DNA from: Sedimentibacter sp. MB35-C1
GTDB lineage: Bacteria > Bacillota > Clostridia > Tissierellales > Sedimentibacteraceae
Assembly: GCF_030913635.1 (NCBI RefSeq)
Contig: NZ_CP133188.1
Location: forward strand, 124,001-188,000
Length of the DNA stretch: 64,000 nucleotides
Direction: 5' to 3'
Part shown: positions 21,682-49,670 of the stretch, one piece after another
Numbering within the stretch: position 1 is the first letter of the stretch
How the letters are laid out: each line of letters starts with the position of its first letter
Made by a program: the position numbers and the translations under genes
Notes under the pieces: generated by a model
Databases searched by the model: none
The model's input: only the letters and a program-made list of their open reading frames with translations
What the model was told of the DNA's origin: nothing

Positions 21682-21806
21682 TTTCACTTTCTCCCATATA
21701 CTGAAGTTTACAATACTGAAAAAACTAATGGAACTAATTTTACAACTATTATTACATAATGGAAGCAAATTTTAAATTCATGCTCCACGTTACTTAGATT
21801 CAAAAT

Positions 21807-23531
21807 TTAAGGCACATACTGCTCTTCAATTATCACCACAACACTGTCCTGCATTTTAATCCAAAACGGCACATTAACTGCTTTGTTTGAATAAGTATTT
21901 AGATATCTAATAAACTCTTCCTTATCTTTTGTGCTATAGTGAAATCTGTCTTCATCACTGCTTGCGAAATCATTTCCCCAATCAATAAATCTGTATTCTG
22001 CATTCTCACCAACTTCGTATACAATTTGTTCAACTTCTGGATTATAAATATAGTATCCATTAGGCATATCAAATTCTTCTATTTTAAGTTCCTGAATTCT
22101 ATCATTATCCTCTAAAGTTATCCATTCGATGGGATCAAATATAATTTGGTTTCCATCAGATTCTTCGAACCCAGAAATGTAACCAATATATGTGAATTCC
22201 CCAACTTCTTCCGAATCTGTTGTAGGTGGAACCTTGGCATCAATTACTTTTCCATTTTCTAAAACGTAGTTCTGTAAATTAATATATACACTTTCAGAAA
22301 CTGCATAATATCTATATTTTTCTTGGGTGTCTTCATTATAAATCATTGCATAAGTTTCATCAGAATAAAAGTTGATATAATATCCATCATGCAAAATAAT
22401 TCTAAGTGTTGCCGTACCTTCTATTGGAGGATTCATCCTTTTTTCTTTCCATTTTTCCTGTTCAAAAATCTCGAGAAAGCTTGAATTAGGAGAAACACTT
22501 AAAGAATCATTATCTTCAGTTTCTACAGCAATATAGTCGCAGGTTGCCATTGCAGACAAGAAATTATTAATATTCAACAACGACAAATCAGGCTCTTCAT
22601 TCTTAGGATTTGACAGTAATCCAACTACAGCAACTAAAAGAACAATTGTTGCTATCACAACAACATAAAACTTTGGTTGTTTAAAATTTATTATATTTTT
22701 AACTCGTCCTTTGGTCTCCCCTTCGCCAAAGGCAAGAGGTGTCATACCAAAATTCCTTCTTTTTATAGATAAGTTCAGCAATGACTGCGAATAGTCTTTT
22801 TTTACGTTGTGACCTAATTGGCTTATAACGGATTCATCACAAGACATCTCCATGTCTTTACCGCTCAACCAAAACGCAATCCAAGCTAAAGGATTAAACC
22901 AATGAATGCATAAAGCCAGATAGCTGATAAATCTAATAACATGGTCAAATCTCTTGATATGAGTTTGTTCATGTAGCACTATATACTCCTTCTCTATTTC
23001 TGACAAAGAAGCAGACAGATATATCTTCGGTTTAATTAAGCCTAAAACAAACGGTGTTTCTACTTTGTTTGAGTAGTAAATATTATTCATTTCACAGCTT
23101 GCATTTTTTAATCTTTTTTTTATTTTTGTAAGCGACACCGCTCCATATATTAAAAGTACAGCAATCCCCAAGACCCAAATCAACGATCCAAGAAAGATCC
23201 AAACGTGCATTGGATTTACACTAGCAACTGCATCTGCTGTTGGAAGCGAACCACTGATAGATTGATCAATATTGTGCATTCCCGTATTAATATAAGGTTC
23301 TAGATTATACATGACGTCATTAGATATAGGTGTTGGGTTCACAGGAATAAGGCTCAAAATACTATCAAATGAAATTGGTACAATAAGTCTAAATAGAGCA
23401 ACTGTCCATAATATGTACGAATATTTTTTAGGAGCTTTTTTAAGAAGTATTCTTGCAAATAATATGAACATAATAACGATACTGCCAATATAACTCATAT
23501 TGATAACTTGTAAAAATAATTTTTCCAACAT
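21807..23531 (-). CDS. BlaR1/MecR1-like M56 membrane metallopeptidase, module 1
   Basis: 574 residues. Three N-terminal helices lead to the cytosolic zinc protease domain, with HEQTH at 187-191 and a downstream glutamate in MEMSCDES. A fourth helix follows (about 273-295). Instead of the penicillin-binding sensor of BlaR1, the outer part is about 275 residues of unfamiliar sequence, so the signal is probably not a beta-lactam. The start ATG lies one base past the stop of the BlaI-like gene, with GGGAGG inside that gene. The protease should inactivate the paired repressor when stimulated. Confidence 0.87.
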   Translation of the reverse strand: MLEKLFLQVINMSYIGSIVIMFILFARILLKKAPKKYSYILWTVALFRLIVPISFDSILSLIPVNPTPISNDVMYNLEPYINTGMHNIDQSISGSLPTADAVASVNPMHVWIFLGSLIWVLGIAVLLIYGAVSLTKIKKRLKNASCEMNNIYYSNKVETPFVLGLIKPKIYLSASLSEIEKEYIVLHEQTHIKRFDHVIRFISYLALCIHWFNPLAWIAFWLSGKDMEMSCDESVISQLGHNVKKDYSQSLLNLSIKRRNFGMTPLAFGEGETKGRVKNIINFKQPKFYVVVIATIVLLVAVVGLLSNPKNEEPDLSLLNINNFLSAMATCDYIAVETEDNDSLSVSPNSSFLEIFEQEKWKEKRMNPPIEGTATLRIILHDGYYINFYSDETYAMIYNEDTQEKYRYYAVSESVYINLQNYVLENGKVIDAKVPPTTDSEEVGEFTYIGYISGFEESDGNQIIFDPIEWITLEDNDRIQELKIEEFDMPNGYYIYNPEVEQIVYEVGENAEYRFIDWGNDFASSDEDRFHYSTKDKEEFIRYLNTYSNKAVNVPFWIKMQDSVVVIIEEQYVP

Positions 23532-23532
23532 C

Positions 23533-23895
23533 CTATCCCTCCCTATATTCATCAATCAATTGCTGTATTTCATCAATCTCTTTTTTACTTAATTTTTTTC
23601 TCCTAGTAAACGCTGTTAAAAACCTAGGCAAAGATCCGCCAAAGGATTTTTCTAAAAAATCTTCTCCTTTTTCTGCTAAAAAATCTTCCTTTTTTATCAA
23701 TACTACAACAGTTCCGTTATCATTTTTGAAAATCTCCCTCTCGCATAGCCGCTTTAGCATTGTATATGTTGTCGTTCTCTTCCATTCAAATTCTTCAGTA
23801 CATATTTCTATCAATTCTCGAGTTTTAATAGGAGCTTTATCCCAAATAATATTTGCAAATCTTTGTTCCATTTCACCAAGCTTATATTTTTCCAC
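23533..23895 (-). CDS. BlaI/MecI-family repressor, module 1
   Basis: 120 residues. A winged helix at the N-terminus (EQRFANIIWDKAPIKTRELI and WKRTTTYTMLKRLCER) is followed by the dimerisation tail with FGGSLPRFLTAF, where M56 proteases usually cleave. The start is GTG with AAGGAGG 7 bases upstream. It is co-transcribed with the M56 gene. Two dyads overlapping its promoter are the expected binding sites. Confidence 0.9.
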   Translation of the reverse strand: MEKYKLGEMEQRFANIIWDKAPIKTRELIEICTEEFEWKRTTTYTMLKRLCEREIFKNDNGTVVVLIKKEDFLAEKGEDFLEKSFGGSLPRFLTAFTRRKKLSKKEIDEIQQLIDEYREG

Positions 23896-28776: not shown

Positions 28777-29451
28777 TTATCTAATTCTTTTAGCTGCAAT
28801 ATATTGACCAAAATACTTCTTAAATTTTTCCAAAGCAGCTTCGATCATTTCTTGATTAACTAATTCTCCTTTAGCATATAATTCCTGGAGCAAACCTGCT
28901 GTTAAAATACCCGCAATATTATTAATATCAATCTTATCTTCTTCCTTAAAATAACCATCTTGAATACATAATTCTACAAGATAAAGAGAACGAACTTCTG
29001 TATTTGGACCATTGACAAACTTCTCAATGCGTTCATTGCGAAGATCACGATGTAGCCAATCTGGAAACGCTTCTGAAACTATCTTTAAATTTCTTTGTAT
29101 ATTACTCGATTGAGATGAAAAAAATATATATGAATATAATTGAGGATTCTGAAATGCATATCGGCAATATGTCAACCAAATTTCCATCAGATTATCGAGA
29201 CTATCAATTCTCTGCGCAAGAATATCACAGCATTCACTTAAGTAATCAGTTATACAATAGATAGATGCCCATTCTTTCAACTCATCAAAGTTATCAAAGT
29301 AGTTATATAATGTAGCACTGTTATAACCTGCTCTTTCCGAAACATTACGTATTGTTAACTGATCCACACCTTCATTTGCCATAATATTAGCTGCGGACTC
29401 TATAAAATATAACATAACTCTTTTCTTTTTTAATGTAATATTCGTTTTCAT
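28777..29451 (-). CDS. TetR-family regulator of the BCCT/cyclodeaminase locus
   Basis: 224 residues. The N-terminal helix-turn-helix is ANEGVDQLTIRNVSERAG, then YNSATLYNYFDNFDEL; the rest is an all-helical ligand domain. AAGGAAG precedes the ATG by 7 bases. A perfect ATAATCA-AA-TGATTAT palindrome lies 18 bases upstream of its ATG, and imperfect copies lie in front of both BCCT carrier genes, so it likely represses itself and the carriers. Its inducer may be the transported compound. Confidence 0.85.
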   Translation of the reverse strand: MKTNITLKKKRVMLYFIESAANIMANEGVDQLTIRNVSERAGYNSATLYNYFDNFDELKEWASIYCITDYLSECCDILAQRIDSLDNLMEIWLTYCRYAFQNPQLYSYIFFSSQSSNIQRNLKIVSEAFPDWLHRDLRNERIEKFVNGPNTEVRSLYLVELCIQDGYFKEEDKIDINNIAGILTAGLLQELYAKGELVNQEMIEAALEKFKKYFGQYIAAKRIR

Positions 29452-29617: not shown

Positions 29618-30583
29618 TTACTTACAAGCTTCATATGTTGCTATAGCCATAGATACATCTAGTACGCAAGATCCAACACTTTCATATAGAGTGATTTCTT
29701 CATCATTTTCACGAGCTTTAACATTGCCAACAAGGCAATCACCTACAGATCCAACGACTTTTTCTTTAGAAACTACTCCCTTTTCTACAGGAATTAGGAT
29801 ATCTCCTGCAGCTTCCCAAAGTCCTTCAACATGTTCTGTAATGATGCGCGCTGCTTTTACAACTGTTTCTTCATCAATTTCTTGCATAAATGGTGTAAAA
29901 GAGCCTATGGCATTGACATGAGTACCAGGTTTTAATTCAGAGCCATTAAATACTGGGGTAAGGGAAGGTGTGCATGTGCAAATAATATCAGAATTAGATA
30001 CCAATTCACTAGCTGATTTACATTTTATGATTATGTACGGTTTATTTTGAACTTTTGCGATTCTCTCTGCAAATTTATCCACTCTATCAGGAAGTGAATC
30101 ATAAATTCTTAACTCTGTAAGTTCTCTAACTTCCTGTACAGCAAGAACCTGCGTATAGGCTTGTTCACCAGTTCCGATTACACCCAAACAATGAGCATCT
30201 TTTCTAGCCATTACATCTGTGGCAACACCAGCACTACCACCAGTCTTAATTGCAGTTAGATAATTTGCATTGATTAAAGCAACCTGTTCTCCAGTTTCGG
30301 CAGAATAAAGACTAATTTTAGAAATTACGCTTGGCAGTCCCTTTGTAATATTGTCTTTAAATACTGCAGAAAACTTAGATCCAAAGAATGGAACATCTAA
30401 ACAATTTGCCACTAGCCATTGACCACAATTTTCTTCTCCTCGGATTGGTCCAACAACCCTACCTGGTGCATATCTTTTTCCTTCTGCAGAAGCCTTGTAT
30501 GCTTCTCTTATAGTTTCAAGAGCCAGACTCATATTCATTGTTTCTTTAACTTGTTCCTCATAAATAAATACCATTTTTTCCAT
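29618..30583 (-). CDS. Ornithine cyclodeaminase / mu-crystallin family enzyme
   Basis: 321 residues. The N-terminal part binds substrate (EGKRYAPGRVVGP; GQWLVANC; FGSKFSAVF with the conserved lysine). A Rossmann dinucleotide site follows at GVIGTGEQAYTQVLA, then NAIGSFTPFMQEID, the usual GS(F/Y)xPxMxE signature. Family reactions include ornithine to proline, ketimine or imino-acid reduction and alanine dehydrogenation. The substrate here is not defined by sequence. AGGAGG lies 7 bases before the ATG. It follows a BCCT carrier gene by about 190 bases on the same strand, so it may act on the imported compound. Confidence 0.83.
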   Translation of the reverse strand: MEKMVFIYEEQVKETMNMSLALETIREAYKASAEGKRYAPGRVVGPIRGEENCGQWLVANCLDVPFFGSKFSAVFKDNITKGLPSVISKISLYSAETGEQVALINANYLTAIKTGGSAGVATDVMARKDAHCLGVIGTGEQAYTQVLAVQEVRELTELRIYDSLPDRVDKFAERIAKVQNKPYIIIKCKSASELVSNSDIICTCTPSLTPVFNGSELKPGTHVNAIGSFTPFMQEIDEETVVKAARIITEHVEGLWEAAGDILIPVEKGVVSKEKVVGSVGDCLVGNVKARENDEEITLYESVGSCVLDVSMAIATYEACK

Positions 30584-30772
30584 TTATAAGCCTCCTAGTA
30601 TAATTAATGTCGTAGCCACTAATGGCTATGCAGTTAATACATTTTTATTATCTAATAACAGAAGAAGGAGTTCTTCCTTCTCCAGATGTTACTTTTCTAT
30701 TTCAACAAATTATCAATATTATTTTATTTCACTGTTAATATTTCTTATCTAGGTTTCATTATCCCATTCAAC

Positions 30773-32314
30773 CTATTCATTATCAATTCTTAATAATACA
30801 TTATTATACAAAAGCTTTCCAGCTTTAAGTACACTCGGAATTAGTGCAACATAGAAGAAGATTAAAGGTAACCCGCAAATTACAATAAAATTTTGCATAG
30901 CACTCATTGCATCATTTCCACCAATTATTACCAAAGCTGCTGCTACAGCGCCTAGAAGAGCTGCAAAAAGAGCACGAATCCATGGATACGGTTCTTCCAT
31001 ACGAGTAGTTTGTACAGCCATACTGTACGCAGCTCCTGCTCCTGTTGTCACTAGGAATAATACAATCAAACTAAGAGCTAGCGGTATCATAAAGAATGAA
31101 CCCGGAATATGCTGTAGCAAACTTATTAATACACTAGGTAACCCTGCCGAATTAAGCGATTCTGAAAGAACTCCTGGATTTAACATTTCAAAACCAATTG
31201 CAGAGCCACCAAAAATAGCAAACCAAATTCCTGTAATAAGTGGACATACAACTGCTATACCAAGTAATATCTGGCGTAAAGAACGTCCTTTTGACATGCT
31301 TAAGGTTAACACTGCCATTGATGGCCCATAAGCAAGGAACCAAATTTGATAGAAGACTGTCCATCCACCCATCCATGCGATATCTAATCTAGAAAAGGAC
31401 ATAATGAAGAAATTCTGAATAAAAATTCCAAGACTATTTACATAATTGTCAACTACAAACATTCCAGTACAAAGAAGTAAAATAGATACAGCAAATATCG
31501 CTCCTAAATATATTGTCGCTTTAGAAAGATAATCCATACCCTTTTTAAGCCCTGTAGCCGCACCAAATATAAATGCTACTGCTGCAATCAGAATAACCAC
31601 TATTTGTGTCATAACTGTATTCGGAATGCCCCATACAGCATTTAAAGCAAATGCAATCTGAAGTCCAAGGAAGCCTGTTGGCCCAATTGTCCCTGCAGCA
31701 ACACCAATTAAAGCAAAAATGTCAAAAGCTTTACCTGCAACACCATTTGCTGCTTTTTCACCACCAATTAGATAAAGCATAGAGCTTGGTCTATTTGGGA
31801 GTCCTTTCTCATAAATTACATAAGCTAAAAGTGGAATACAGAAAGCTGTTGCTCCCCATACCAAATACCCCCAATTAAATGCACCTTGAGCTAAAGCATA
31901 GCCAGCTGCTGTAAATGTTCCTGCTTCAACACCTTCAAAATGTGGGGGTACATTTACAAAATGATAAAATGGTTCTGCTGCTGCATAAAAAACACCACCA
32001 CCGGCAAGCATTGTTGTAATGATAATTGCATACCAGCTAAATGTATTAGTTTCTACTTTTGCATCTTTCCCACCAATTCTTATATTTCCGAATTTTGAAA
32101 TTGCTATAAATAACGCTATCAACCAAAAACTTACCATCATCAGCTGTATAAATCCGCCAAAGTAATTAGCAACAACATTAAATCCATTGGAAATGACTCC
32201 GTATGTAGCTTCACCATTAACTAATGAACATATTACGAATAGAATTAAAAATCCTGCCAAAATTCCAAATCGTAACCACTCAATGTTTCCCTTTTTCATT
32301 TCACTTTTTTCCAT
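30773..32314 (-). CDS. BCCT-family transporter, copy 1
   Basis: 513 residues with about 12 membrane helices. BCCT carriers import betaine, carnitine, choline or similar compounds. The core is recognisable (TMLAGGGVFYAAAEPFYHF and WTVFYQIWFLAYGPSMAV), but the usual aromatic-rich helix 8 pattern WWxxW(A/S)PFVG is replaced by FYQIWFLAYGPSMA. The substrate pocket is therefore atypical. AAGGAGG precedes the ATG by 5 bases. It is a tandem duplicate of the next gene, with the promoter region also copied. Likely controlled by the nearby TetR protein. Confidence 0.88.
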   Translation of the reverse strand: MEKSEMKKGNIEWLRFGILAGFLILFVICSLVNGEATYGVISNGFNVVANYFGGFIQLMMVSFWLIALFIAISKFGNIRIGGKDAKVETNTFSWYAIIITTMLAGGGVFYAAAEPFYHFVNVPPHFEGVEAGTFTAAGYALAQGAFNWGYLVWGATAFCIPLLAYVIYEKGLPNRPSSMLYLIGGEKAANGVAGKAFDIFALIGVAAGTIGPTGFLGLQIAFALNAVWGIPNTVMTQIVVILIAAVAFIFGAATGLKKGMDYLSKATIYLGAIFAVSILLLCTGMFVVDNYVNSLGIFIQNFFIMSFSRLDIAWMGGWTVFYQIWFLAYGPSMAVLTLSMSKGRSLRQILLGIAVVCPLITGIWFAIFGGSAIGFEMLNPGVLSESLNSAGLPSVLISLLQHIPGSFFMIPLALSLIVLFLVTTGAGAAYSMAVQTTRMEEPYPWIRALFAALLGAVAAALVIIGGNDAMSAMQNFIVICGLPLIFFYVALIPSVLKAGKLLYNNVLLRIDNE

Positions 32315-32369
32315 TTTTGCCTCCTTAAATGTATGATTGGTAATAATTTCAAGTTATAACTTTCACAAA

Positions 32370-32404
32370 ATAATCGATTGATTACATTCTAATCACTTGA
32401 TTGC
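32370..32404 (-). promoter_or_regulatory. TetR-type operator pair before BCCT copy 1
   Basis: ATAATCGATTGATTAC and CTAATCACTTGATTGC are 19 bp apart. Both match the TetR palindrome imperfectly. They lie about 55-90 bases before the carrier ATG, where a promoter should be. Confidence 0.55.
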
Positions 32405-32540
32405 TTTTTGTCAATAGGCTTTATTTATTTTTTTAAACAATTTTTGCACTTCCATTCTTTTCTTCAAATAAACTAGTCTGGACATTTTTTTCATGTGTTC
32501 AATTTTAAAAATAAACCTTCAAACCTTTTATTGATAACAT

Positions 32541-32571
32541 CAAAAAAGTTCATCCATAATAAGACGAACTT
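32541..32571 (-). terminator. Terminator after BCCT copy 2
   Basis: AAGTTCGTC pairs with GATGAACTT (one G-U), loop TTATTATG, then TTTTTTG on the minus strand. A duplicate stands at 34405-34435. Confidence 0.83.
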
Positions 32572-32619
32572 CGATTAAGATTATATTTTAATAATTTTCA
32601 ATTAGAACCGATAAAGAAA

Positions 32620-34179
32620 TTACTCTTCTGTTTCTAGTATCCCTTCCTCAACTCTCAGTTGCTTGTTTTGATATAGCAACCTAGCTGCTTTAAAAACACT
32701 TGGAATTAACATAATATAAAATACAATAAGCGGTAATCCACATATAACTATAAAGTTCTGCATAGCGCTCATTGCATCATTTCCTCCAATAAGAACTAAA
32801 GCTGCAGCTGAAGCACCTAGTAGAATTGCTAATAGGGCTCGAATCCATGCATATGGCACATCCATATTAGTGACCTGAACAGACATACTGTATGCAGCTC
32901 CAGAGCCTGTCGTGACAAGAAATAATGTAATTAATATTAAGGCTAAAGGAATCATAATGTAAGAATGGGGTAACTGTTGAAGCAAGGTAATAAGAACACT
33001 TGGTAACCCATCTGTGTTCATAACAGTTGATAATATTCCAGCGTTTTGCATTTCAAATCCTATTGCGACTCCACCAAAAATCGAGAACCACACACCCGCA
33101 ATCATTGGACAGATTACTCCAATTCCAATCATCACTTCTCTTAATGTACGCCCTTTAGACATACTTAATGCTAATACCGCCATAGATGGCCCGTATGCCA
33201 GGAACCAAATCTGATAGAAAATTGTCCAACTACCTAACCAAGTAGGGTCTACTCTTGTAAATGCCATAACAAAAAAATTATGCATAAACACACCTAGACT
33301 ATTGATATAGGAATCAAATACAAACATTCCACATCCTAAAGTCAAAATGCCCGCAGCAAAAACTACTCCTAGATACACTGTTGCCCTCGATAATAAATCA
33401 ATACCTTTCTTCAAGCCTGTCGCTGCACCAATTACAAATGTAATGGAAGCTACTAAAATAACAACAATTTGTGTTAATGCTGTATTTGGAATTCCCCACA
33501 CCGCATTTAGCGCAAAGGCAATTTGTAGCCCTAGAAATCCTGTAGGTCCAATCGTTCCAGCTGCAACACCAATTAAAGAAAATATATCAAAAGCCTTACC
33601 TAATACACCATTAGTTACTTTTTCGCCACTGATTAACCAGAGCATAGAACTTGGCCTATTTGGTAAACCCTTTTCATAGATAACATAAGCTAATAGTGGA
33701 ATACAGAAAGCTGTTGCCCCCCATACCAAATATCCCCAATTAAATGCACTTTGAGCTAAAGCATATCCTACTGCTTTTGTTGTTGCAGACTCTATTCCAT
33801 TAAAATGCGGAGGCAAATTTATAAAATGATAAAATGGCTCTGCTGTTGCGTAAAACACTCCTCCACCTGCAAGCATTGTTGTAATGATAACAGCATACCA
33901 ACTAAAGGTATTTGTTTCTTTCTTTGAATCTTTGCCGCCAATACGAATATTTCCAAATTTTGATATTGCAACATAAAGTGCAATCACCCATAAGAGAAAC
34001 ATCAAAATTTGTGTAAGGCCACCTAGATTTGTTGAAATAAAGTTAAACCCTACGATAATCGCTTTGTAGGTAGTACTACCATTTATTAGAGAACCTAGAA
34101 TAAACAAGATTAAAAAAACTGTAAGAATACCAAATCGCAACCACTCAATTTTCCCCTTTTTTGTCTCAATTTTTGCCAT
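32620..34179 (-). CDS. BCCT-family transporter, copy 2
   Basis: 519 residues, closely similar to copy 1 over its length, with the same atypical helix 8 (WTIFYQIWFLAYGPSMAVLA). The main differences are at the C-terminus, where this copy has a longer acidic tail (EEGILETEE). GAGGAGG lies 6 bases before this ATG; an ATG five codons upstream overlaps it. Having two carriers suggests different affinity or substrate range for related compounds. Confidence 0.88.
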   Translation of the reverse strand: MAKIETKKGKIEWLRFGILTVFLILFILGSLINGSTTYKAIIVGFNFISTNLGGLTQILMFLLWVIALYVAISKFGNIRIGGKDSKKETNTFSWYAVIITTMLAGGGVFYATAEPFYHFINLPPHFNGIESATTKAVGYALAQSAFNWGYLVWGATAFCIPLLAYVIYEKGLPNRPSSMLWLISGEKVTNGVLGKAFDIFSLIGVAAGTIGPTGFLGLQIAFALNAVWGIPNTALTQIVVILVASITFVIGAATGLKKGIDLLSRATVYLGVVFAAGILTLGCGMFVFDSYINSLGVFMHNFFVMAFTRVDPTWLGSWTIFYQIWFLAYGPSMAVLALSMSKGRTLREVMIGIGVICPMIAGVWFSIFGGVAIGFEMQNAGILSTVMNTDGLPSVLITLLQQLPHSYIMIPLALILITLFLVTTGSGAAYSMSVQVTNMDVPYAWIRALLAILLGASAAALVLIGGNDAMSAMQNFIVICGLPLIVFYIMLIPSVFKAARLLYQNKQLRVEEGILETEE

Positions 34180-34236
34180 TTTTTGCCTCCTCAAATGTAT
34201 GAATTATTAATAATGTTAAGTTATAACTTTCACAAA

Positions 34237-34554: not shown

Positions 34555-34863
34555 TCAGCAGTCCCATTGACATTTCTTTAAGTCAACATGGGTTTCATCT
34601 TTTAGAGGAATACCCTCGTTGCGAAGCAATGCACCTTGTTCAACCCATCCTGGCGCTAGTCTACCAGCATGATTAACTACTCTATGACAAGGATAGTCTC
34701 CATAACATTCTGCCCTGCTGAGTACTTTTCCAACAAGTCTTGCATTTTTATCTCTTCCAATTAGCCTTGCTATTTGTCCATATGTAGCAACACTACCCTC
34801 CGGAATTTCCTCTACAACGGAAAGAATCTCATAAATCAAATCTTCTTCTAACACTCGCTTCAT
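34555..34863 (-). CDS. MGMT-fold DNA-binding protein (short alkyltransferase-like)
   Basis: 102 residues matching the C-terminal domain of O6-alkylguanine-DNA alkyltransferase: EEIPEGSVATYGQIARLIGR, the arginine finger region ARLVGKVLSRA, and the active-site loop YPCHRVVN with C59. Short stand-alone homologues (ATL proteins) usually have tryptophan in place of this cysteine; here it is kept, so it might still accept alkyl groups. It probably recognises O6-alkylguanine in DNA. It ends in a short Cys-containing tail (KKCQWDC). No operon partner. Confidence 0.83.
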   Translation of the reverse strand: MKRVLEEDLIYEILSVVEEIPEGSVATYGQIARLIGRDKNARLVGKVLSRAECYGDYPCHRVVNHAGRLAPGWVEQGALLRNEGIPLKDETHVDLKKCQWDC

Positions 34864-35024: not shown

Positions 35025-35774
35025 CTAAATTGTATCTATAAGTGCATGTAATAGTATACATGGTGTTAATGACTTTGTTTGAATACATATTTTCCCAAAT
35101 ATAAATCCTATAAACATTTGAATGCAAGTTGATAGAAGTATGCCTATAGATATTTCTTTATAACCAACAATATGAACTATACCAAAAATAATAGATTGAA
35201 TTATATTTGCTTTATCTTCTCTTATATGAAATGCAAGCAGCCCATTTATGAAAAGACCCCTAAAAAGTACTTCCTCTATTATACTTGGATAAAATAATTT
35301 CTGTATGAAATTTTTGATATAAAAGCTAATCGTATTGCTCTCCGTTTGCAAGTCAACAATTGTTACTGACTCCAACAAAATAAATATCATTATAACTATA
35401 AAAAAACTTTTAGTAGTAATAGCCCAGTTGAAATCGTTCAGCCTAACTTTAAATAAATATCCTAATAAAATAGTCATTGTCAATGGCACTTGAAATAACA
35501 GTCTCAATTGATTAAGCGTATAGTGATCTGTATTCACTAAATTAGCAATAATCTGAATAATCATATATGCAATAAAAACTAAAATAAATGCATATAAAAA
35601 TTTTTTTTCCTTCTTTATTTCGACTTTATAATTTGTTAATTGATTCTCGAAAACAATTAATACCATTAAAGATAATATGAATGAGAATACATACTTTGTA
35701 CGAACCAAAAAAATGAGAATCATGCATACGCAAAGGAAAGCCAATTCCATGAATGACAACCTTTTAATTTTCAT
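35025..35774 (-). CDS. CPBP-family intramembrane glutamic protease (Abi)
   Basis: 250 residues with about seven helices. Motif 1 is EEVLFRG (E167, E168, R172), motif 2 is FGIVHIVGY (H201), and motif 3 is near the end (LLHALIDTI). These are the catalytic elements of CAAX/bacteriocin-processing proteases, which cleave within or near the membrane. The substrate is unknown; possible roles include bacteriocin self-immunity. I start at the ATG with GGGAG 5 bases upstream; a GTG four codons earlier is possible. Confidence 0.83.
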   Translation of the reverse strand: MKIKRLSFMELAFLCVCMILIFLVRTKYVFSFILSLMVLIVFENQLTNYKVEIKKEKKFLYAFILVFIAYMIIQIIANLVNTDHYTLNQLRLLFQVPLTMTILLGYLFKVRLNDFNWAITTKSFFIVIMIFILLESVTIVDLQTESNTISFYIKNFIQKLFYPSIIEEVLFRGLFINGLLAFHIREDKANIIQSIIFGIVHIVGYKEISIGILLSTCIQMFIGFIFGKICIQTKSLTPCILLHALIDTI

Positions 35775-36007
35775 CTCAGCTCCCACCTCTATTTCTCTAA
35801 GTAATTATTAATGCTACTTTGTAGGCAATAGATATATTAATCTCTACCAAAAGCTTATCACAATTTTGTTACAATTTCTATTACTATAAATATATTTTTT
35901 CTAGAAGATACACCACAATATTAGTGTTATAATTAAAGACTTTTGTTTGTACAAATTGGAATCACTTTATTTACATTGCCAAGATGTTGAGCAGTTAGTA
36001 GTACCAT

Positions 36008-37225
36008 TTATATTTCTTGGAAATTTAAATGGTAAGCTTTCAAAATTTTTTCAAGAGCACTGCAGAAGCTGTCGATTTCACTTTCTGAAAGGGTCAAAGG
36101 CGCATAGAGATGAATAAAATTATATAGCTCAGAATAACCAACAAAGAAACCGCTACTAAGAAGCTTGTGAAATACAACCTTGGATTTAAAAGTTTTATTG
36201 AGCATGACCACGTTCATCATGCCTCTGCCTCTTATTTCTCCAATGCCATCAATTTCAAAGAGCCTTTTTCTGAAATATTCACCGGTTTTTTGTGATTTTT
36301 CTATGAGCTTTTCCTTTTCTATAATTTCTACAACTTTTCTTGCCACAATACATCCCAGTGGATCATCTGTGTGGGACTGCACATATTTAAAGTTAGTTTT
36401 TTCTGTAGCTTCTGCAAGATTTGAACGAATTAGCAGGCAACTCACGGGATATCCGTTGCCGAGGCCTTTGCCAAGGCATATTAAATCAGGGAAATTTTCT
36501 TTGCTGTCAAAGCAGTTGTAATGCTGAAATCCAAACCACTTTCCTGTTCTTCCAAAGCCTGTTGTTACTTCATTTGCTATTATCAGGCAGTCTTCTTCTC
36601 TGCATTTTTGCACAAAGAAATCTATGAGCTTTTGTGGTTGACAAAGAACCAGACCTGCTGAGTTACCCGGCTCAAATACAAAAGCAGCATATTCTGAAAA
36701 ATCAATAGAATTAAATTTGCCGCATTCGCCGCATGTTATATTTTTTTTGCAGTTAAGGCAATCATTTATATTCACATCATTCCAAAATTTTGTATCTCTC
36801 GGCATTCGCAGCTCTCGTGCCGAACCTAAATTAGAAATTGAAAAGCAGAGTTTTTTTTCTCTTCCTGTGAGAAGCTCTGCAAGAACAACTGACAGAGATA
36901 CAGCTTCACTTCCTGATGTCATAAATGTACCCTTGTAGCTGCATTTGAAGTTTGCAGCTTCTCCAAGCTCCTTCACCAACGCTCCCGGATGCTCTGTACC
37001 TATCATCTGATTGGTGTGAAACAGCATGCCTGCCATTTCCTGAAGTACGTGAGTAATTTCATAGTTGCAGTGACCTAAGACAGCAGCCCAGCAGCCAGAT
37101 TCCAAATCAATAATTTCTCCGTATTCCTCAGTAAGAAGTTTTGTTCCGTAAGCTTTAACGGCAGTGATGGAAACGCTGGGATCAGGAAACATTCTAATAT
37201 GCATGTCATTGTAGGATTTGTTCAT
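36008..37225 (-). CDS. Class III PLP aminotransferase with a tetracysteine insertion
   Basis: 405 residues of the ornithine/GABA aminotransferase class. SGSEAVSLSVVLA is the PLP phosphate region, ANEVTTGFGRTG the coenzyme ring region, and the lysine K253 is in CLGKGLGNGYP. Two features stand out. The usual DEVQTG aspartate is Asn (N218). A segment at 150-172 carries C156, C159, C165 and C168 as CxxC-x5-CxxC, which could hold zinc or an Fe-S centre. GGAGG lies 6 bases before the ATG. The MocR-type gene is divergent and 113 bp away, so it likely controls this gene. The substrate is not known. Confidence 0.82.
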   Translation of the reverse strand: MNKSYNDMHIRMFPDPSVSITAVKAYGTKLLTEEYGEIIDLESGCWAAVLGHCNYEITHVLQEMAGMLFHTNQMIGTEHPGALVKELGEAANFKCSYKGTFMTSGSEAVSLSVVLAELLTGREKKLCFSISNLGSARELRMPRDTKFWNDVNINDCLNCKKNITCGECGKFNSIDFSEYAAFVFEPGNSAGLVLCQPQKLIDFFVQKCREEDCLIIANEVTTGFGRTGKWFGFQHYNCFDSKENFPDLICLGKGLGNGYPVSCLLIRSNLAEATEKTNFKYVQSHTDDPLGCIVARKVVEIIEKEKLIEKSQKTGEYFRKRLFEIDGIGEIRGRGMMNVVMLNKTFKSKVVFHKLLSSGFFVGYSELYNFIHLYAPLTLSESEIDSFCSALEKILKAYHLNFQEI

Positions 37226-37307
37226 TTTTTTCCTCCAATAATGATTTATTTTTTTCATTTTTAATATATAATATAATGTATAATAGTTCAATTGCAAATA
37301 TTTCATT

Positions 37308-37321
37308 CTGTACTACTACAG
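37308..37321 (+). promoter_or_regulatory. Small dyad in the aminotransferase/MocR divergent promoter
   Basis: CTGTA and TACAG flank CTAC, 18 bases before the regulator's ATG. It may be an operator for the MocR protein; evidence is limited to position. Confidence 0.3.
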
Positions 37322-37338: not shown

Positions 37339-38706
37339 ATGGAAATAAGTAAGGTTGATTTAGTTAAAAACTATATTTTTAATGAAGTTAAGTCAGGAAA
37401 AATTAAAGCAGGCCAGCGTCTGCCAAGCTGCAGAGAAATATCTTCAAAGCTTGGAGTCAATAAAATTACCGCAAACAAAGCCTACAATGAATTGGAGGAT
37501 GAGCACAGAGTATACAGCATTCCAAGAGGAGGATTCTATCTTGTGGATTCAGCTCAGAACTCAAGGGACACTGAAGATGATTTGGTTGACTTTTGCACTG
37601 TCAAGCCTGATGAAAAACTTATTCCCTACAGAGAGTTTGCCCACGTGATGAACAATGCTGTGGATTTATACAAAGGTGAGCTCTTTGGATACGAGCATGA
37701 GGGAGGGCTCAGCTCTTTAAGAAATACTCTTAAAACTGAATTTGAAAAGGACGGTGTGTATACTTCTTCTCAGCAGATGATAATAACTCACGGAGCCCAG
37801 CAGGCACTGTGGCTTGTGCTTCAGTCTGCTTTTAGGACAAGAAATGGAAAGCTTCTTGTTGAATCTCCCACCTACAGCCTTGTTCTTGACATGGCAAGAC
37901 AATTAGGTGTTGAAGCTGTGGGAATCGAAAAAAAAGTTGATGGCTTTGACTACAATGCTATGGAAAAAATTTTTCGCACAGGTGAAATAGTGTGCTTTTA
38001 CATAATACCAAGGCACCACAATCCAACAGGTTATTCTCTTTCGGAAAATGACAAACTTAAAATTGTAAAGCTTTCTAAAAAATACGAGGTTCTTGTAATA
38101 GAGGATGATTATCTTGCAGACCTTGGCTCTGCAAAAGGGTTTATGCCCATTCACTACTATGATACAACGAAAAGCTCTGTGTACATAAAAAGCTTTTCAA
38201 AGACCTTCATGCCTGGAATAAGAACTGGGGTGGCGGTTCTTCCAAAATCAATTTACGAAGATGTGCTTAATCTTAAGCACGTGAGCGATTTAAATACATC
38301 CTTGATCCCTCAGGCGGCTCTTGATTTGTTTATTAAGTCTGGGATGTATGAAAAACACATTAAAAAAGTCAGAAAATCATATGAAGCAAAGCTTAGAATC
38401 TGTGATGCGATTTTCAAAACCTCTTCTTGTGAGGATGTAAGCTTTCACGTTCCACACCACGGAATATTTTTGTGGCTCAGCTTGCCCTTCGGTGTAAGGG
38501 GAGAGGAGCTCGAAAACAATCTTAGGCACAAGGGCATTCTCATAAAGACAGCAACAAATTGCTATCCGTCAAACTGCTTTCAAGGTAATGATTCAGTAAG
38601 ACTTTGCATATCCGGAGTTATGGAAGAAAGATTGAACAGTCTGAGAACAGTAATCATGGAAATTAATAACTTGAGAAATAAGTACAGCGCAAAAAATCAT
38701 AAATAA
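37339..38706 (+). CDS. MocR-type regulator divergent from the aminotransferase
   Basis: 455 residues. GntR winged helix at 1-75 (VKNYIFNEVKSGKIKAGQ; SCREISSKLGVNKITANKAY). Then a class I aminotransferase-like domain with PRHHNPTGYSLS and the PLP lysine in IKSFSKTFMPGIRTG. GAGGTG precedes the ATG by 4-5 bases; the frame upstream to 37276 covers the promoter. By position it should regulate the divergent class III aminotransferase, perhaps sensing PLP or its substrate. Confidence 0.86.
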   Translation: MEISKVDLVKNYIFNEVKSGKIKAGQRLPSCREISSKLGVNKITANKAYNELEDEHRVYSIPRGGFYLVDSAQNSRDTEDDLVDFCTVKPDEKLIPYREFAHVMNNAVDLYKGELFGYEHEGGLSSLRNTLKTEFEKDGVYTSSQQMIITHGAQQALWLVLQSAFRTRNGKLLVESPTYSLVLDMARQLGVEAVGIEKKVDGFDYNAMEKIFRTGEIVCFYIIPRHHNPTGYSLSENDKLKIVKLSKKYEVLVIEDDYLADLGSAKGFMPIHYYDTTKSSVYIKSFSKTFMPGIRTGVAVLPKSIYEDVLNLKHVSDLNTSLIPQAALDLFIKSGMYEKHIKKVRKSYEAKLRICDAIFKTSSCEDVSFHVPHHGIFLWLSLPFGVRGEELENNLRHKGILIKTATNCYPSNCFQGNDSVRLCISGVMEERLNSLRTVIMEINNLRNKYSAKNHK

Positions 38707-44690: not shown

Positions 44691-47600
44691 TTACCTAGAC
44701 ACGTTCTGGCAAAAGTGCATTAAAATTGTCGCAACCTCTGCACGAGTAGCCTCTCCACGTGCATCAATCACATTATTGTCCTTACCAGACATCAACTTTG
44801 CGTTTACGGACCACGTTACCGACTCAAGCGCCCAATCTGAAATCATGTCGTAATCAGAAAATTTTTGGACAGCCATACCGCCTTGTGTCGTATCATATCC
44901 CTTAAACTGCGAATATCGATACAAAATTGCCGCCATCTGCTCACGAGTAATGGTATCTGTAGGACCAAAGTTTCCGTTTCCATAGCCCTTCACGATGTCA
45001 TTTTCTACCCCCCAGTTGACTGCATCCTCATAATACTTGCCCTCGGTAACGTCTGAGAAACTGGCATCACTGGAAGCCTCAGGTTGTCCTTCCAATCTCC
45101 AAAGGATAGTAACAATCATCCCACGGTCAGTGTTGATATAAGGACCAAACTCATCATTGCCCATTCCGCTCATAAGACCTTCATTAGTAACGTAGTAAAC
45201 TGCATCCTTAAACCAATCGCTATCTTTTACATCATCATAGGTAATTGTTTCAGGTTGCTCAACAGACTTAACAAAGCTAGCTGTAATAGTATGATTCTTT
45301 GCAACATTTTCAAAGATATACGATGTTACTGCTCCTACACTCACTCCGTCTACCAAGACATCAGAAACAACATACCCACTGTCAGGGGTAATGGTGAAGC
45401 TTTTGTCTGAATTTTTAACCACATTGACCTTACCATTAGCACTGATGCTACCATTTTCTCCTGCCGTTGCAGTGATGGTATATGATGTTGTGCTGCTACT
45501 TCCACCTGAACTACTATTCTTTTTCAGAGTCAGTTCACCTACTGCATTGGAAAGGGTTACTGGTGTATAATTTTCATCGGTTGCGGACAGGATATTACCG
45601 CTCGTTACGATGCTCCAGTAGGTATACCCATAGCCACTTCTATCGCCTATGGCACTGGCAATTTCCGTGCCGCTTGGAAGCAATGTCGATGACACATTCA
45701 GTGTCTCACTCTGGGATTTTGTTGTACTTTTATCCACTACACAAATTGCAGCAACTGCTGCATCTGCGGTGAAGATACTGGAATCATCCACAGTAAAGGT
45801 TCCGTCCTCTATATACACGCCGTAGTCACATCCCACTGTAAGTGTCGATCCGTCAGTGACAGAAATGCCACCGTCTAAAGTATGTATACTGTAATACTCT
45901 GCGCTTACATTTAACGTTGCACCCCCTTCTACCCGTACAGTATCGCAACCAATGGCGTAAGCACCAGTAGAAGGAATAGACATGGTAGTTCCTTCCCCAG
46001 TTACTACCAACGTACCGTCTGTTCCGGAAGCACCGATGGAAATAAGTCCGTTTATCGTTAACTGTGCGCCGTCTTGCACGGTAATCGTATCGCCATTCGT
46101 AAAACCGACAATATCTCCGTTAATACTCAGCTCTGCAGTTCCGGTAAAGGTAAAATCAATAAGATAGGAGCCAGCACCCTGGATAACACCATTAATGACG
46201 CTGTCTGCAGTCGTGTGAATCTTCACAGGGGAATTGTCAGGCAGGGTAAGATTGCCGTCCACATAAGCACCACCCAAAGTCAACGTGTAGCCGTCTGTAC
46301 TATTGCCTGTCCAGGTGTAACCATCGTCTGCAAGCGTTGCACTACTGTGGTCACCGCGTGCCAAATCAAGATCACCGTGAATCACGGTAATTCGTTCGCC
46401 GCTATTGGAATAAATAGTATTGTTTGTTCCATCAACTCCATCATACACCTGAATTTTGCCGGTGCCTGAAGCTTTTAAAACATTCTGGGCAATTGTTTTG
46501 ACCTGAACCTCTGTCAGCCCATTCGGCAAAAGAATGATTCCATTGTTAACCAGAGTCCCATTATTGATAATGTATTCTCCGATGTTATCCGCCGTTACTC
46601 CCGACATAACTAATCCTGAAGCATTTCCTGCCGTATACATCTTAGAGTCACTGTCGATCGTCCATCTGCTGCCACTGGAGATCCTAAGAATATATTTAGC
46701 GGAATACTGCGATATGCCAGTTTGCATTGTTTCATTAGACAATGCACAGTCACCATAAATCGTGTTAGTGATGATGAAATTGGCAGCATCTACAGTTAAG
46801 ACACTGGCATTGAGTGTGCCGCCGGTATAGGTAACTGTTCCGATGCATACCAGTCCATAAGAATCTAAAGAATGATAGTTGGCTGTTCCACCCGTCATAG
46901 AAAAATCTCCCTGACAAATACCAGCTTTTTCGTTATAAATCGTTCCTCCGTTAATCACGGTATCTCCACTGGAATATAAATTGCCTTTAAGATAACCACT
47001 ATCCATGACAAAATTAACTGCGTAGATGTTTTCTGTATCAATATTTCCACTGCTTGCGATAATCAGTGTACCATCTGTGGAAATTGGTATTTTACTATTT
47101 GTCTCCGTTTCTAAGGTTCCATCCCCTAAGAAAGTTAGTTTGTAGTCCTGCGGAACTTGTTTCACAGGATTGTCCTTGTCAATCACTGCGATACCGCCCT
47201 GCTTAATAATAGCAATTATATCATTTGCATCAACATTATTGGTCAAGCTATTCTCACCCTCAAGTTCAACAATAACGTCAACGGTTGGAAGGGTAATCAA
47301 CGCTTTGTACTCGTTTGCTTCCATGGTCGCATTGTGAAGTGTAAGTGTGCCGGCGGTAACGGCTTCACTTTCCACCGTCGGTTTCCACAGAACATAGCCA
47401 TTTCCTGCTATGTAGACAGTGTCAGTAGTTGGGGCACCTGTACTTAAATCGAGAGTACTATTGCTGATTTCAATGTTAGGGGAATAAAATTTTCCGTCAA
47501 CTACTAAAACAGGGGTGCCGTTCACCTGAACACTACCGTCCCCCGTGAGGTTCAATGCCGTAATCGTTGCGGCGGAAATAGTTTCGCCTTGGAAATTAAT

Positions 47601-49508
47601 GGTTCCGTTATTAACAATGGTACCGTTATTTGTAATTTCCGTGCCGTCTTCAACCGTAATGGTCACTCCATCGTCAATGGTCAGCGTCCCGCCGTATGCC
47701 ACAGTCAGCCCATCCTCATCAGTCCAAGCAGTAATGGTTTTATCGTCGGTCAGTTCATAACTTCCATAAACTGTCTGAACCAAGTTATTATAATAGTTTT
47801 CCTTGCCCTCCGAGACCCAAGAGCCAGTCAAGTTACCGCTTTGGTACGAAAAGTAACCTGTCGATATTCTCTGCGCGTTCACAGTTCCAATGGTATTGAC
47901 GGTAATACTGCCATTGGAATAAATTCCCCTTGAAACTCCAGATACTGTTACGTTAGCATTACCGGAGATTGTCAATGCCTTCTGGGCGTTAATGCCGTAA
48001 GACATATTACCCGTTGCACTTGCTACGGTCACATCACCTGTAATTGTCAAAGTATCATTGCCTTGACAAATCCCATCGCTACTACTACCATTGGATGTAA
48101 CATTTAATATCCCACTCCCCTGGATGTCGGTATCGCCACTATCGTGAAAAATCCCAGTGGAGGATGATGTGATATTGTTTTCTCCTTCCACCTCAATGGT
48201 AACAGGAAGGTTAGGCAGGTACAGTGCACCACCGCTTGTGTTGTTAATCGTCGCATTGTGCAGGGTCAAGGTTCCGCTGGTAACCACACTACTGTCGTCC
48301 AACGTTGGTTCCCACAGAACGTAGCCATCGCCTGCGGTGTAGAAGCGTTTTTCAGTGGGAGTGTCCGTATTCAAGTCAAGTTTATCATTGCTGATATCAG
48401 AGTAAACTGTATTAAATTCGCCGCCAATCAGCAAAACATTATTGCTGTCTATCTGGATTTTGCCGCAGCCGCTCAAATTCAAATTATTAATCGTTTCAGC
48501 GGTGATGCTTTCATCCATAAAATTGATGGTGCCGTTATTAATAATGGTACCGTTATTTGTGATTTCCGCACCATCTTCTATCGTCAGGGTTACCCCTTCG
48601 TCGATGGTCAGTGTTGCGCCAGTTAAGACGGTCAGACCATCTTCCCCAGAACAGGAATTAATGGTTTGATCTGTGGTCAATGCAAAATCGCCGTAAACCG
48701 AATAAACAAAATTTTCGTAATAGTTATCCTTGCCCTCAAGAACCAAGGAACCGGTCATGGTACCGCTCGTATATGTAAAATCAGCTGTTGTTCTAATATT
48801 CGGTGCATTCACTTCTCCGGTGGTATTAATGGTAATCGTGCCGTTTGAGTAGATATTCTGCTCACCGCCGCCCGAGGCCATTACATTGGCATTGCCGGAG
48901 ATGGTCAGACCATCCTGGGGATTTTGGCCATAAGCTGCTATTGGTCCAGCCGAATTGGCAACCACAGTCACATCGCCTGTAATGATCAATAAATCATTAT
49001 TTAGACAAATTGCGCCATATTCGATATGTGAAACGGTCAGCGTGCCGCTGCCTTCGATGGTGGTTGTTCCAATGTTTTTATAAATTCCATAAGAGCCGCC
49101 TGAAATTGTGTTTTCTCCTTCCACATCGATGGTTATTTCTACGTTTGGAAGTTTCAGGGCTGTGCCGCTGGTGACGGATATAGATGCGCCGTTCAGCGTC
49201 AGCGTACCTCCTGTGACATTACTATCGGTATCCACAGTCGGCCCCCATAGGATATAGCCGTCTTCCGCTATGTAGGCGGTCGTCTCTGTGGGGGTACTGC
49301 TGGACAAATCAAGCCCCGCGTTGCTAACGTCGCCCTTGTATGTATAGCTTACGCCGTCAATGGTGATGGTGTCCGTATCAGCGGTTAGCGTTACGTCCTC
49401 TGCCATCGCAGCCGTCCAATCTTGGTAGTCTTCCGCCAGTGCCATCACTGGCAACATAGCCATAATCATACATACTGTAAGCAGTATGCTTAAGATTCTT
49501 TTCTGCAT
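44691..49508 (-). CDS. Large repetitive surface protein with C-terminal SLH domains
   Basis: 1605 residues. Signal peptide MQKRILSILLTVCMIMAMLP ends near AEDYQ. Three N-terminal units of roughly 200-250 residues repeat (LDLSSSTPTETTAYIAEDGY and IEVEGENNI patterns), each with GTLTLxxA and TIDDGVT strands, suiting a beta-helix or carbohydrate-binding-like fold. A Gly-Ser linker and an InlB-type repeat (TITATAGENGSISANGK) follow. Three SLH domains close the protein (about the last 190 residues: WFKDAVYYVTNEGLMSG; FGPTDTITREQMAAILYR) and should bind secondary wall polymer. AAGGAGG precedes the ATG by 5 bases. Probably an adhesin. Confidence 0.86.
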   Translation of the reverse strand: MQKRILSILLTVCMIMAMLPVMALAEDYQDWTAAMAEDVTLTADTDTITIDGVSYTYKGDVSNAGLDLSSSTPTETTAYIAEDGYILWGPTVDTDSNVTGGTLTLNGASISVTSGTALKLPNVEITIDVEGENTISGGSYGIYKNIGTTTIEGSGTLTVSHIEYGAICLNNDLLIITGDVTVVANSAGPIAAYGQNPQDGLTISGNANVMASGGGEQNIYSNGTITINTTGEVNAPNIRTTADFTYTSGTMTGSLVLEGKDNYYENFVYSVYGDFALTTDQTINSCSGEDGLTVLTGATLTIDEGVTLTIEDGAEITNNGTIINNGTINFMDESITAETINNLNLSGCGKIQIDSNNVLLIGGEFNTVYSDISNDKLDLNTDTPTEKRFYTAGDGYVLWEPTLDDSSVVTSGTLTLHNATINNTSGGALYLPNLPVTIEVEGENNITSSSTGIFHDSGDTDIQGSGILNVTSNGSSSDGICQGNDTLTITGDVTVASATGNMSYGINAQKALTISGNANVTVSGVSRGIYSNGSITVNTIGTVNAQRISTGYFSYQSGNLTGSWVSEGKENYYNNLVQTVYGSYELTDDKTITAWTDEDGLTVAYGGTLTIDDGVTITVEDGTEITNNGTIVNNGTINFQGETISAATITALNLTGDGSVQVNGTPVLVVDGKFYSPNIEISNSTLDLSTGAPTTDTVYIAGNGYVLWKPTVESEAVTAGTLTLHNATMEANEYKALITLPTVDVIVELEGENSLTNNVDANDIIAIIKQGGIAVIDKDNPVKQVPQDYKLTFLGDGTLETETNSKIPISTDGTLIIASSGNIDTENIYAVNFVMDSGYLKGNLYSSGDTVINGGTIYNEKAGICQGDFSMTGGTANYHSLDSYGLVCIGTVTYTGGTLNASVLTVDAANFIITNTIYGDCALSNETMQTGISQYSAKYILRISSGSRWTIDSDSKMYTAGNASGLVMSGVTADNIGEYIINNGTLVNNGIILLPNGLTEVQVKTIAQNVLKASGTGKIQVYDGVDGTNNTIYSNSGERITVIHGDLDLARGDHSSATLADDGYTWTGNSTDGYTLTLGGAYVDGNLTLPDNSPVKIHTTADSVINGVIQGAGSYLIDFTFTGTAELSINGDIVGFTNGDTITVQDGAQLTINGLISIGASGTDGTLVVTGEGTTMSIPSTGAYAIGCDTVRVEGGATLNVSAEYYSIHTLDGGISVTDGSTLTVGCDYGVYIEDGTFTVDDSSIFTADAAVAAICVVDKSTTKSQSETLNVSSTLLPSGTEIASAIGDRSGYGYTYWSIVTSGNILSATDENYTPVTLSNAVGELTLKKNSSSGGSSSTTSYTITATAGENGSISANGKVNVVKNSDKSFTITPDSGYVVSDVLVDGVSVGAVTSYIFENVAKNHTITASFVKSVEQPETITYDDVKDSDWFKDAVYYVTNEGLMSGMGNDEFGPYINTDRGMIVTILWRLEGQPEASSDASFSDVTEGKYYEDAVNWGVENDIVKGYGNGNFGPTDTITREQMAAILYRYSQFKGYDTTQGGMAVQKFSDYDMISDWALESVTWSVNAKLMSGKDNNVIDARGEATRAEVATILMHFCQNVSR

Positions 49509-49670
49509 ATTTTCCTCCTTATCATCCTTATGTAATAAATTCTGACAAAGAAATTCAATATTGATGATGGAACCACAGCTTGCAATCCATGATTCCTTTT
49601 TATTGCTTCTTTGCCCCATTCTTCGATTCAAGTCTCACCTAAACCTCGGTTTTCTCCTTCTGTTCCCCTG

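Follow-up and report, generated by a model that had tools for sequence, protein, structure and literature searches.

A class III PLP enzyme subfamily with a four-cysteine loop and asparagine at the ring-nitrogen position, encoded in one lineage beside a divergent MocR-type regulator

The enzyme gene described here lies within a 64,000-nucleotide stretch of the Sedimentibacter sp. MB35-C1 genome (the window). As judged from its sequence and predicted structure, the encoded protein is a class III, fold type I PLP enzyme of an unnamed subfamily, and its two unusual conserved features, a loop with four cysteines and an asparagine at the position that contacts the PLP ring nitrogen, are real. What is new is, in addition, that a MocR gene shares the intergenic region with the enzyme gene and that this region carries a conserved 37-bp operator-like element. 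The coordinates are collected in Table 1.

The enzyme and its relatives

The ATG at 37225 was taken as the start of the enzyme gene, while the start in the program-made list of open reading frames lies farther out, at 37306; frame 1 of the plus strand is broken by stops across 36008-37225. The protein matched PF00202 (Aminotran_3) with 178.1 bits at a curated cut-off of 30.5, which places it in class III. The motif GFGRTG is present, and K253 as well as the phosphate-binding loop S104-G105-S106-E107-A108 were invariant in all 52 rows of the alignment. An AlphaFold2 model (mean pLDDT 94.0, pTM 0.92) was compared with known structures by VIA-align and gave tied scores for dialkylglycine decarboxylase (Z 44.7) and ArgD (Z 44.3). 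The aspartate that usually contacts the PLP ring nitrogen in fold type I was not found in the window enzyme, where N218 takes its place; since this residue lies outside the Pfam cut-off definition, class III membership stands. Of the 69 matching NCBIfam models 25 were listed, and all of these stayed below their cut-offs; the top one, argD (TIGR00707), scored 152.3 bits (cut-off 410.05). This agrees with the initial annotation, in which a distinct enzyme had been proposed.

Scanning of genome contigs yielded 73 loci. In whole-genome searches, each including the window's own genome, the enzyme was detected in 3 of 27 genomes of the family (E<=1e-60), 7 of 249 genomes of the order (E<=1e-70) and 6 of 398 genomes of a phylum sample (E<=1e-60), so that the gene is rare and patchily distributed. 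Plasmid and phage records gave no match at E 1e-30 and 1e-20. The alignment (A1) comprised 52 full-length rows. Fragments or sequences with N (L016, L039, L042, L051, L055 and L099) were left out before counting, and duplicate records of the same genes were recognized (L005/L012 = L097, L006 = L089, L007 = L095, L008 = L096); L035, which is nearly identical to L034, was kept outside the alignment but is among the 58 loci used for gene context. In one of the fragmentary cases, Caloramator australicus (L016:8193-9207), the enzyme gene consists of two separate open reading frames, perhaps owing to a frameshift or a sequencing error, and the MocR gene still adjoins.

Six close relatives from Tissierella, Alkaliphilus, Sedimentibacter and a Clostridiales metagenome-assembled genome share 53-61% identity with the window enzyme, and the other 45 rows, which include Bacteroidota, Chloroflexi, Desulfobacter-type, Ignavibacteria and Gemmatimonadetes sequences, share 31-38%. 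In a quick tree, from which the loop columns as well as columns 218 and 372 had been excluded, the window's clade comprised seven rows (support 100) and was set off by a long stem of 1.16 changes per column.

Table 1. Features of the enzyme gene and the adjoining regulator in the window
Feature	Coordinates	Strand	Basis
Class III PLP-dependent aminotransferase-type enzyme, 405 aa	36008..37225	-	PF00202 match, AlphaFold2 model, fold match
His372, replacing the substrate-carboxylate Arg	36110..36112	-	Arg in 45/45 wider rows; window's clade (7 rows) 6 His, 1 Gln
Lys253, predicted Schiff-base lysine	36467..36469	-	Invariant in 52/52 rows
N218EVTTG motif (218-223), Asn where Asp contacts the PLP ring nitrogen	36557..36574	-	N 44, E 5, D 3 among 52 rows
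Four-cysteine loop C156LNC159KKNITC165GEC168	36722..36760	-	Quartet in 25/52 family rows
Asn132 at the PLP-stacking aromatic position	36830..36832	-	Tyr or Phe in 51/51 other rows; Asn in window protein alone
Ribosome-binding site GGAGG of the enzyme gene	37232..37236	-	6 nt upstream of ATG; GGAGG in 6/6 aligned upstream regions
Promoter-like TTGAAC-N17-TATATT of the enzyme gene	37263..37291	-	Consensus scan; conserved in aligned upstream regions
Predicted MocR operator CTGTAGTAGTACA-N17-TTGAACT, 37 bp	37285..37321	-	Direct half-sites 30 bp apart and one inverted half-site
MocR-type regulator, 455 aa (GntR DNA-binding and aminotransferase-like domains)	37339..38706	+	PF00392, PF00155; best NCBIfam model PdxR

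Cysteine loop and PLP-contacting residues

Cysteines are located at positions 156, 159, 165 and 168 (CLNCKKNITCGEC), exactly where the initial annotation had placed them. The window protein contains 16 cysteines, and the pattern CxxCx5CxxC arose in 140 of 200,000 shuffles of its own residues (1008 of 200,000 for the looser CxxC-x(4-7)-C-x(2-3)-C); we regard conservation in relatives as the stronger argument for the loop. Both CxxC pairs were kept in 6/6 aligned close relatives, and the possibility, raised in the same annotation, that the cysteines are not conserved in close homologues can be set aside. In the complete alignment the quartet was found in 24 rows in compact form (C-x(1-2)-C-x(4-7)-C-x(2-3)-C) and additionally in L097, whose two CxxC pairs are both intact but set apart by a long insert. 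Two changes account for the distribution of this old loop on the tree: the quartet is present in all rows of a 39-row clade (SH-aLRT 91) except for a 14-row subclade with 0-3 cysteines, and it is absent from the remaining 13 rows. Three uncounted sequences (L042, L055 and L099) also have, by eye, at least four cysteines in the loop. As 27 of the 52 rows lack the quartet, it is dispensable. The loop was modelled with high confidence, the AlphaFold2 block means for residues 151-170 being 94 and 96. Conservation of two CxxC pairs over such a distance and across an insert is as expected of a structural metal site, and the four cysteines fit a candidate site of this kind, with zinc as the most likely metal; redox sensing by the loop is possible but favoured less. 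Among open-licence PubMed Central papers none was found on a class III PLP aminotransferase with a four-cysteine zinc site.

The hexapeptide NEVTTG at 218-223 stands in place of DEVQTG, as had been noticed before, and N218 aligns with the aspartate of DEVQTG/DEAQTG in ArgD and dialkylglycine decarboxylase. Thr221, which corresponds to the glutamine of DEVQTG, was invariant in 52/52 rows. Asparagine at 218 is thus a subfamily trait that extends beyond the window's clade and is not peculiar to the window protein, while the three Asp and five Glu rows indicate that it is not essential to the subfamily. All eight of these rows fall within one 9-row Bacteroidota/Ignavibacteria group of the tree. 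Homologues sharing both features, which the initial annotation had proposed to look for, do exist, and the cysteine quartet and Asn218 both belong to the subfamily. In fold type I PLP enzymes Asp is usual at the ring nitrogen and Glu occurs in some, according to excerpts of PMC6411801; a search of open-licence PubMed Central papers found none on a fold type I enzyme with this Asp swapped for Asn. With natural Asp and Glu members beside the Asn majority, and a subfamily spread over several phyla, the role of the ring-nitrogen contact becomes testable on nature's own series.

Two further active-site positions deviate in the window protein (Table 1). Position 372 we take to be the carboxylate-binding arginine of ornithine aminotransferase, and position 132 presumably holds the aromatic residue that stacks on the PLP ring. 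The loss of the arginine suggests a changed reaction partner in the window's clade, and Asn132 together with His372 could mean a changed or lost activity of the window copy.

The divergent regulator and the gene neighbourhood

The presence of a divergent MocR regulator, claimed earlier, was borne out by a gene on the opposite strand with GntR (PF00392, 41.2 bits) and aminotransferase-like (PF00155, 70.2 bits) domains, both over cut-off. Its start was taken as 37339, which leaves a gap of 113 bp to the enzyme gene; the longest open frame begins at 37276. The best-matching model was PdxR (NF052282), with 265.1 bits against a cut-off of 320. This cut-off was passed by the regulators of L020, L049, L053 and L094 and failed by those of L089 and L097.

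The operator pattern YTGTANYRGTACA-N17-TTGNACY was conserved in 6/6 aligned upstream regions (the window and five clade members); exact matches were also found in L011, L089 and L090, whereas the copy in L092 has two mismatches. Its second half-site overlaps the -35 element of the promoter-like sequence of the enzyme gene, which is not significant by itself, since the consensus scan yielded 10 sites versus 8.3 in shuffles. Searching 13 enzyme-bearing genomes gave nine exact copies, one per genome and each between the MocR and enzyme genes, at an expectation of about 0.02 chance matches in ~45 Mb under even base composition. Since these same sites served to define the pattern, what is informative is that no further exact copies occur. 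In the four genomes without an exact copy (G246, G600, G557 and G443), a one-mismatch copy was located beside MocR at a contig end in G246 (L108) and a two-mismatch copy between both genes in G600 (L111); at the loci of G443 and G557 themselves, no copy with two or fewer mismatches was found. Allowing up to two mismatches raised the number to 55 matches in the 13 genomes versus 32 for a reversed control. Eleven of the 55 adjoin this MocR gene (the nine exact ones, L108 and L111), and flanks were examined for 30, including all nine exact ones; one single-mismatch match in G247 (L121) adjoins neither gene. With 44 weaker matches against 32 in the control, no wider regulon is proven, and for the window genome the predicted regulon is this MocR-enzyme pair.

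In 17 of the 58 other loci, among them the six complete members of the window's clade, a divergent MocR gene is located no more than 1.1 kb upstream of the enzyme gene; one more locus has it on the same strand at a distance of 1.5 kb. For 40 of the 58, the available DNA, in which some contigs are short, yielded no MocR resembling either of the two queries. Four Chloroflexi-type loci (L020, L024, L049 and L053) have the enzyme gene between the MocR gene and pdxS, which follows ~60-100 bp downstream (between match ends); PF01680 was confirmed in 3/3 of the pdxS loci scanned, and L024 also encodes a pdxT-type protein. An EamA permease gene adjoins the enzyme gene in five of the 58 loci by tblastn (L033, L090, L092, L093 and L098) and in L094 by Pfam, and in the sister clade it follows the enzyme gene in four of six rows. 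When the neighbours of 53 loci were clustered (open reading frames of >=90 aa), MocR was the only cluster in more than four loci. An operon with the CPBP protease (35025-35786) or alkyltransferase (34555-34863) gene, both downstream on the minus strand as well, was rejected, as neither is among the clusters that recur in at least three of the 53 loci.

The 102-aa alkyltransferase-type protein (34555-34863, minus strand) matches only the DNA-binding domain of O6-methylguanine methyltransferases and keeps PCHRV. Also in the window, 29618-34194 (minus strand) holds two tandem BCCT transporters of the betaine/carnitine/choline type followed by an ornithine cyclodeaminase family gene; together with a TetR gene further on (28777-29451), these possibly form a quaternary-amine uptake cluster. 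A second MocR-type regulator (GntR and Aminotran_1_2; 20272-21768, minus strand) is encoded ~15 kb away beside a gene for a BlaR1-type M56 peptidase (21807-23555). The 1646-aa protein at 44691-49631 (minus strand) has as its sole Pfam match at E 1e-5 an S-layer homology domain, with the best stretch near the C terminus.

The link that these neighbourhoods make between the subfamily and B6 economy is one of association only. Searches of the window genome for pdxS, pdxJ and pdxH gave no match, and the surroundings of the window enzyme gene yielded no B6 gene; a strong Phos_pyr_kin gene lies elsewhere, in a family that includes thiamine-pathway kinases. Among 15 enzyme-bearing genomes, pdxS was present in three, PdxJ in none and PdxH over cut-off in none (three weak partial matches), and 12 had a Phos_pyr_kin-family kinase over cut-off. 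In the order, pdxS was over cut-off in 79 of 248 genomes and in none of the seven that carry the enzyme, a weak difference; its absence from the other 169 genomes marks it as background that is not specific to enzyme-bearing genomes, and it was discarded as support for B6 salvage. Excerpts of PMC9997740 name Tissierellia among the groups that lack both B6 synthesis routes and report that ~93% of salvage-only genomes encode only the kinase, suggesting pyridoxal-only salvage. In Tissierella (L096:9405-12864), the MocR gene is closely neighboured on its far side by what looks by eye like a thiamine salvage operon (thiD-cytX-thiM-thiE). A thiamine/B6 kinase link at this locus was considered and dismissed as coincidence, since the Phos_pyr_kin gene, 633 bp beyond MocR, is followed by what appear by eye to be cytX, thiM and thiE.

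Proposed function, alternatives and comparison with known systems

We tentatively favour, at a little less than even odds, a transaminase whose amine or amino acid substrate is connected with B6/PLP economy, encoded in a two-gene unit under a PLP-sensing MocR and equipped with a structural-metal cysteine loop. MocR would sense PLP, either alone or joined to the substrate, and switch mainly the enzyme gene. The four cysteines would hold one structural metal, most likely zinc, and Asn218 would leave the pyridine nitrogen unprotonated or weakly protonated, which may render the enzyme slower or more selective than ordinary transaminases; transamination would still be the most likely reaction. The PF00202 match and the fold, the retention of 46 of 47 constrained columns and a cysteine quartet that needs two changes on the tree are consistent with this reading, as are the divergent MocR in 17/58 loci, the exact operator in 9/13 genomes and the downstream pdxS in 4/58 loci, with regulators above the PdxR cut-off in three of these (L020, L049 and L053) and in L094. 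Against it, the pdxS link comes from distant relatives (31-33% identity), while the window MocR stays below the PdxR cut-off, most loci yielded no MocR, Asn218 is not essential and the quartet dispensable, an exact operator copy is lacking in 4/13 genomes, and Asn132 and His372 may point to changed or lost activity.

Possible but less probable is a catabolic transaminase for amines or omega-amino acids. In this case MocR would respond to the substrate, which the EamA permease would carry in the relatives, and the Chloroflexi pdxS link would reflect shared PLP-sensing regulators only. GabR senses GABA and TauR senses taurine, and the two-gene arrangement, with the exact operator occurring just once in each of 9/13 genomes, would suit such a role, as would the adjoining EamA genes. 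The hosts, too, include amino-acid fermenters, as which we regard Tissierella, Alkaliphilus and Sedimentibacter. However, no cluster in three or four of the 53 loci looks by eye like a dehydrogenase partner, and the loss of the carboxylate arginine in the window's clade speaks against an ordinary GABA/2-oxoglutarate enzyme. Asn218 could also be read as keeping the pyridine nitrogen neutral, which disfavours the quinonoid and hence transamination; the enzyme would then be a racemase, decarboxylase or lyase. The pyridine nitrogen is kept neutral by Arg in alanine racemase and by Ser in serine racemase, and class III already holds racemases and dialkylglycine decarboxylase, the top structural match tied with ArgD. 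In excerpts of PMC6411801 an unprotonated ring nitrogen is linked to racemisation. We nevertheless consider this unlikely, as sequence models ranked ArgD first and Glu or Asp at 218 within the subfamily implies that not every member needs a neutral nitrogen.

PdxH is an oxidase that uses oxygen, and in anaerobes devoid of it a dedicated transaminase under MocR/PLP control might instead form the aldehyde from pyridoxamine or pyridoxamine phosphate, with Asn218 and a metal-held loop fitting a B6 vitamer as substrate. The tallies in the 15 enzyme-bearing genomes (PdxH 0, PdxJ 0, PdxS 3, kinase 12) are consistent with such oxygen-free salvage, but pdxS is also absent from most genomes of the order, and we rate this as quite improbable. 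That the window copy is decaying or no longer catalytic is very unlikely. Such decay could explain Asn132, His372 and Gln196 (Pro in 50 of the 51 other rows). On the other hand, 46 of the 47 columns that hold one residue in at least 95% of the 51 other rows are kept, as are K253, the operator, the ribosome-binding site and an intact reading frame; departures from clade-shared residues (18/157) do not exceed those of L097 (21/160), though they are above those of the other five members (0 to 13). We read this as divergence under selection rather than decay. Through the MocR link, the way in which anaerobes without PdxH handle B6 becomes open to testing.

With ArgD-type acetylornithine aminotransferases (7nn1, 2ord and 2eh6) and dialkylglycine decarboxylase (1d7r) the window enzyme shares the fold, the lysine, the phosphate loop and the order of motifs (Z 43.6-44.7, 23-28% identity), whereas these enzymes have Asp at the ring nitrogen, keep the arginine and show no four-cysteine loop among their alignments listed. 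To this extent the cysteine pattern is, as the initial annotation put it, not typical of the class; the statement has to be narrowed for the same-genome paralogue L002 and for L073-L077, class III enzymes with cysteine clusters at about the same alignment position. These clusters differ in their longer cysteine spacing and in sequence, and the Asp is kept in L002 and L073. Among the alignments listed to solved relatives (five of L002, three of L073) none has the quartet there, and 3n5m keeps two cysteines.

A MocR regulator next to a class III transaminase is also the layout of GabR-GabT type pairs, from which the present pair differs in that no gabD-like partner was seen beside the enzyme. 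Parallels are also offered by PdxR and PdxQ regulons: in excerpts of Suvorova and Rodionov (2016; PMC5320631), PdxR-regulon genes include ArgD-family aminotransferases, and PdxQ-regulon genes include DMT permeases and aminotransferases. Asn at the PLP aspartate or a cysteine loop is not described in these excerpts, and the main text nowhere mentions Tissierella, Alkaliphilus or Chloroflexi. The arrangement MocR-enzyme-pdxS resembles PdxR regulons, and MocR-enzyme-EamA resembles PdxQ regulons.
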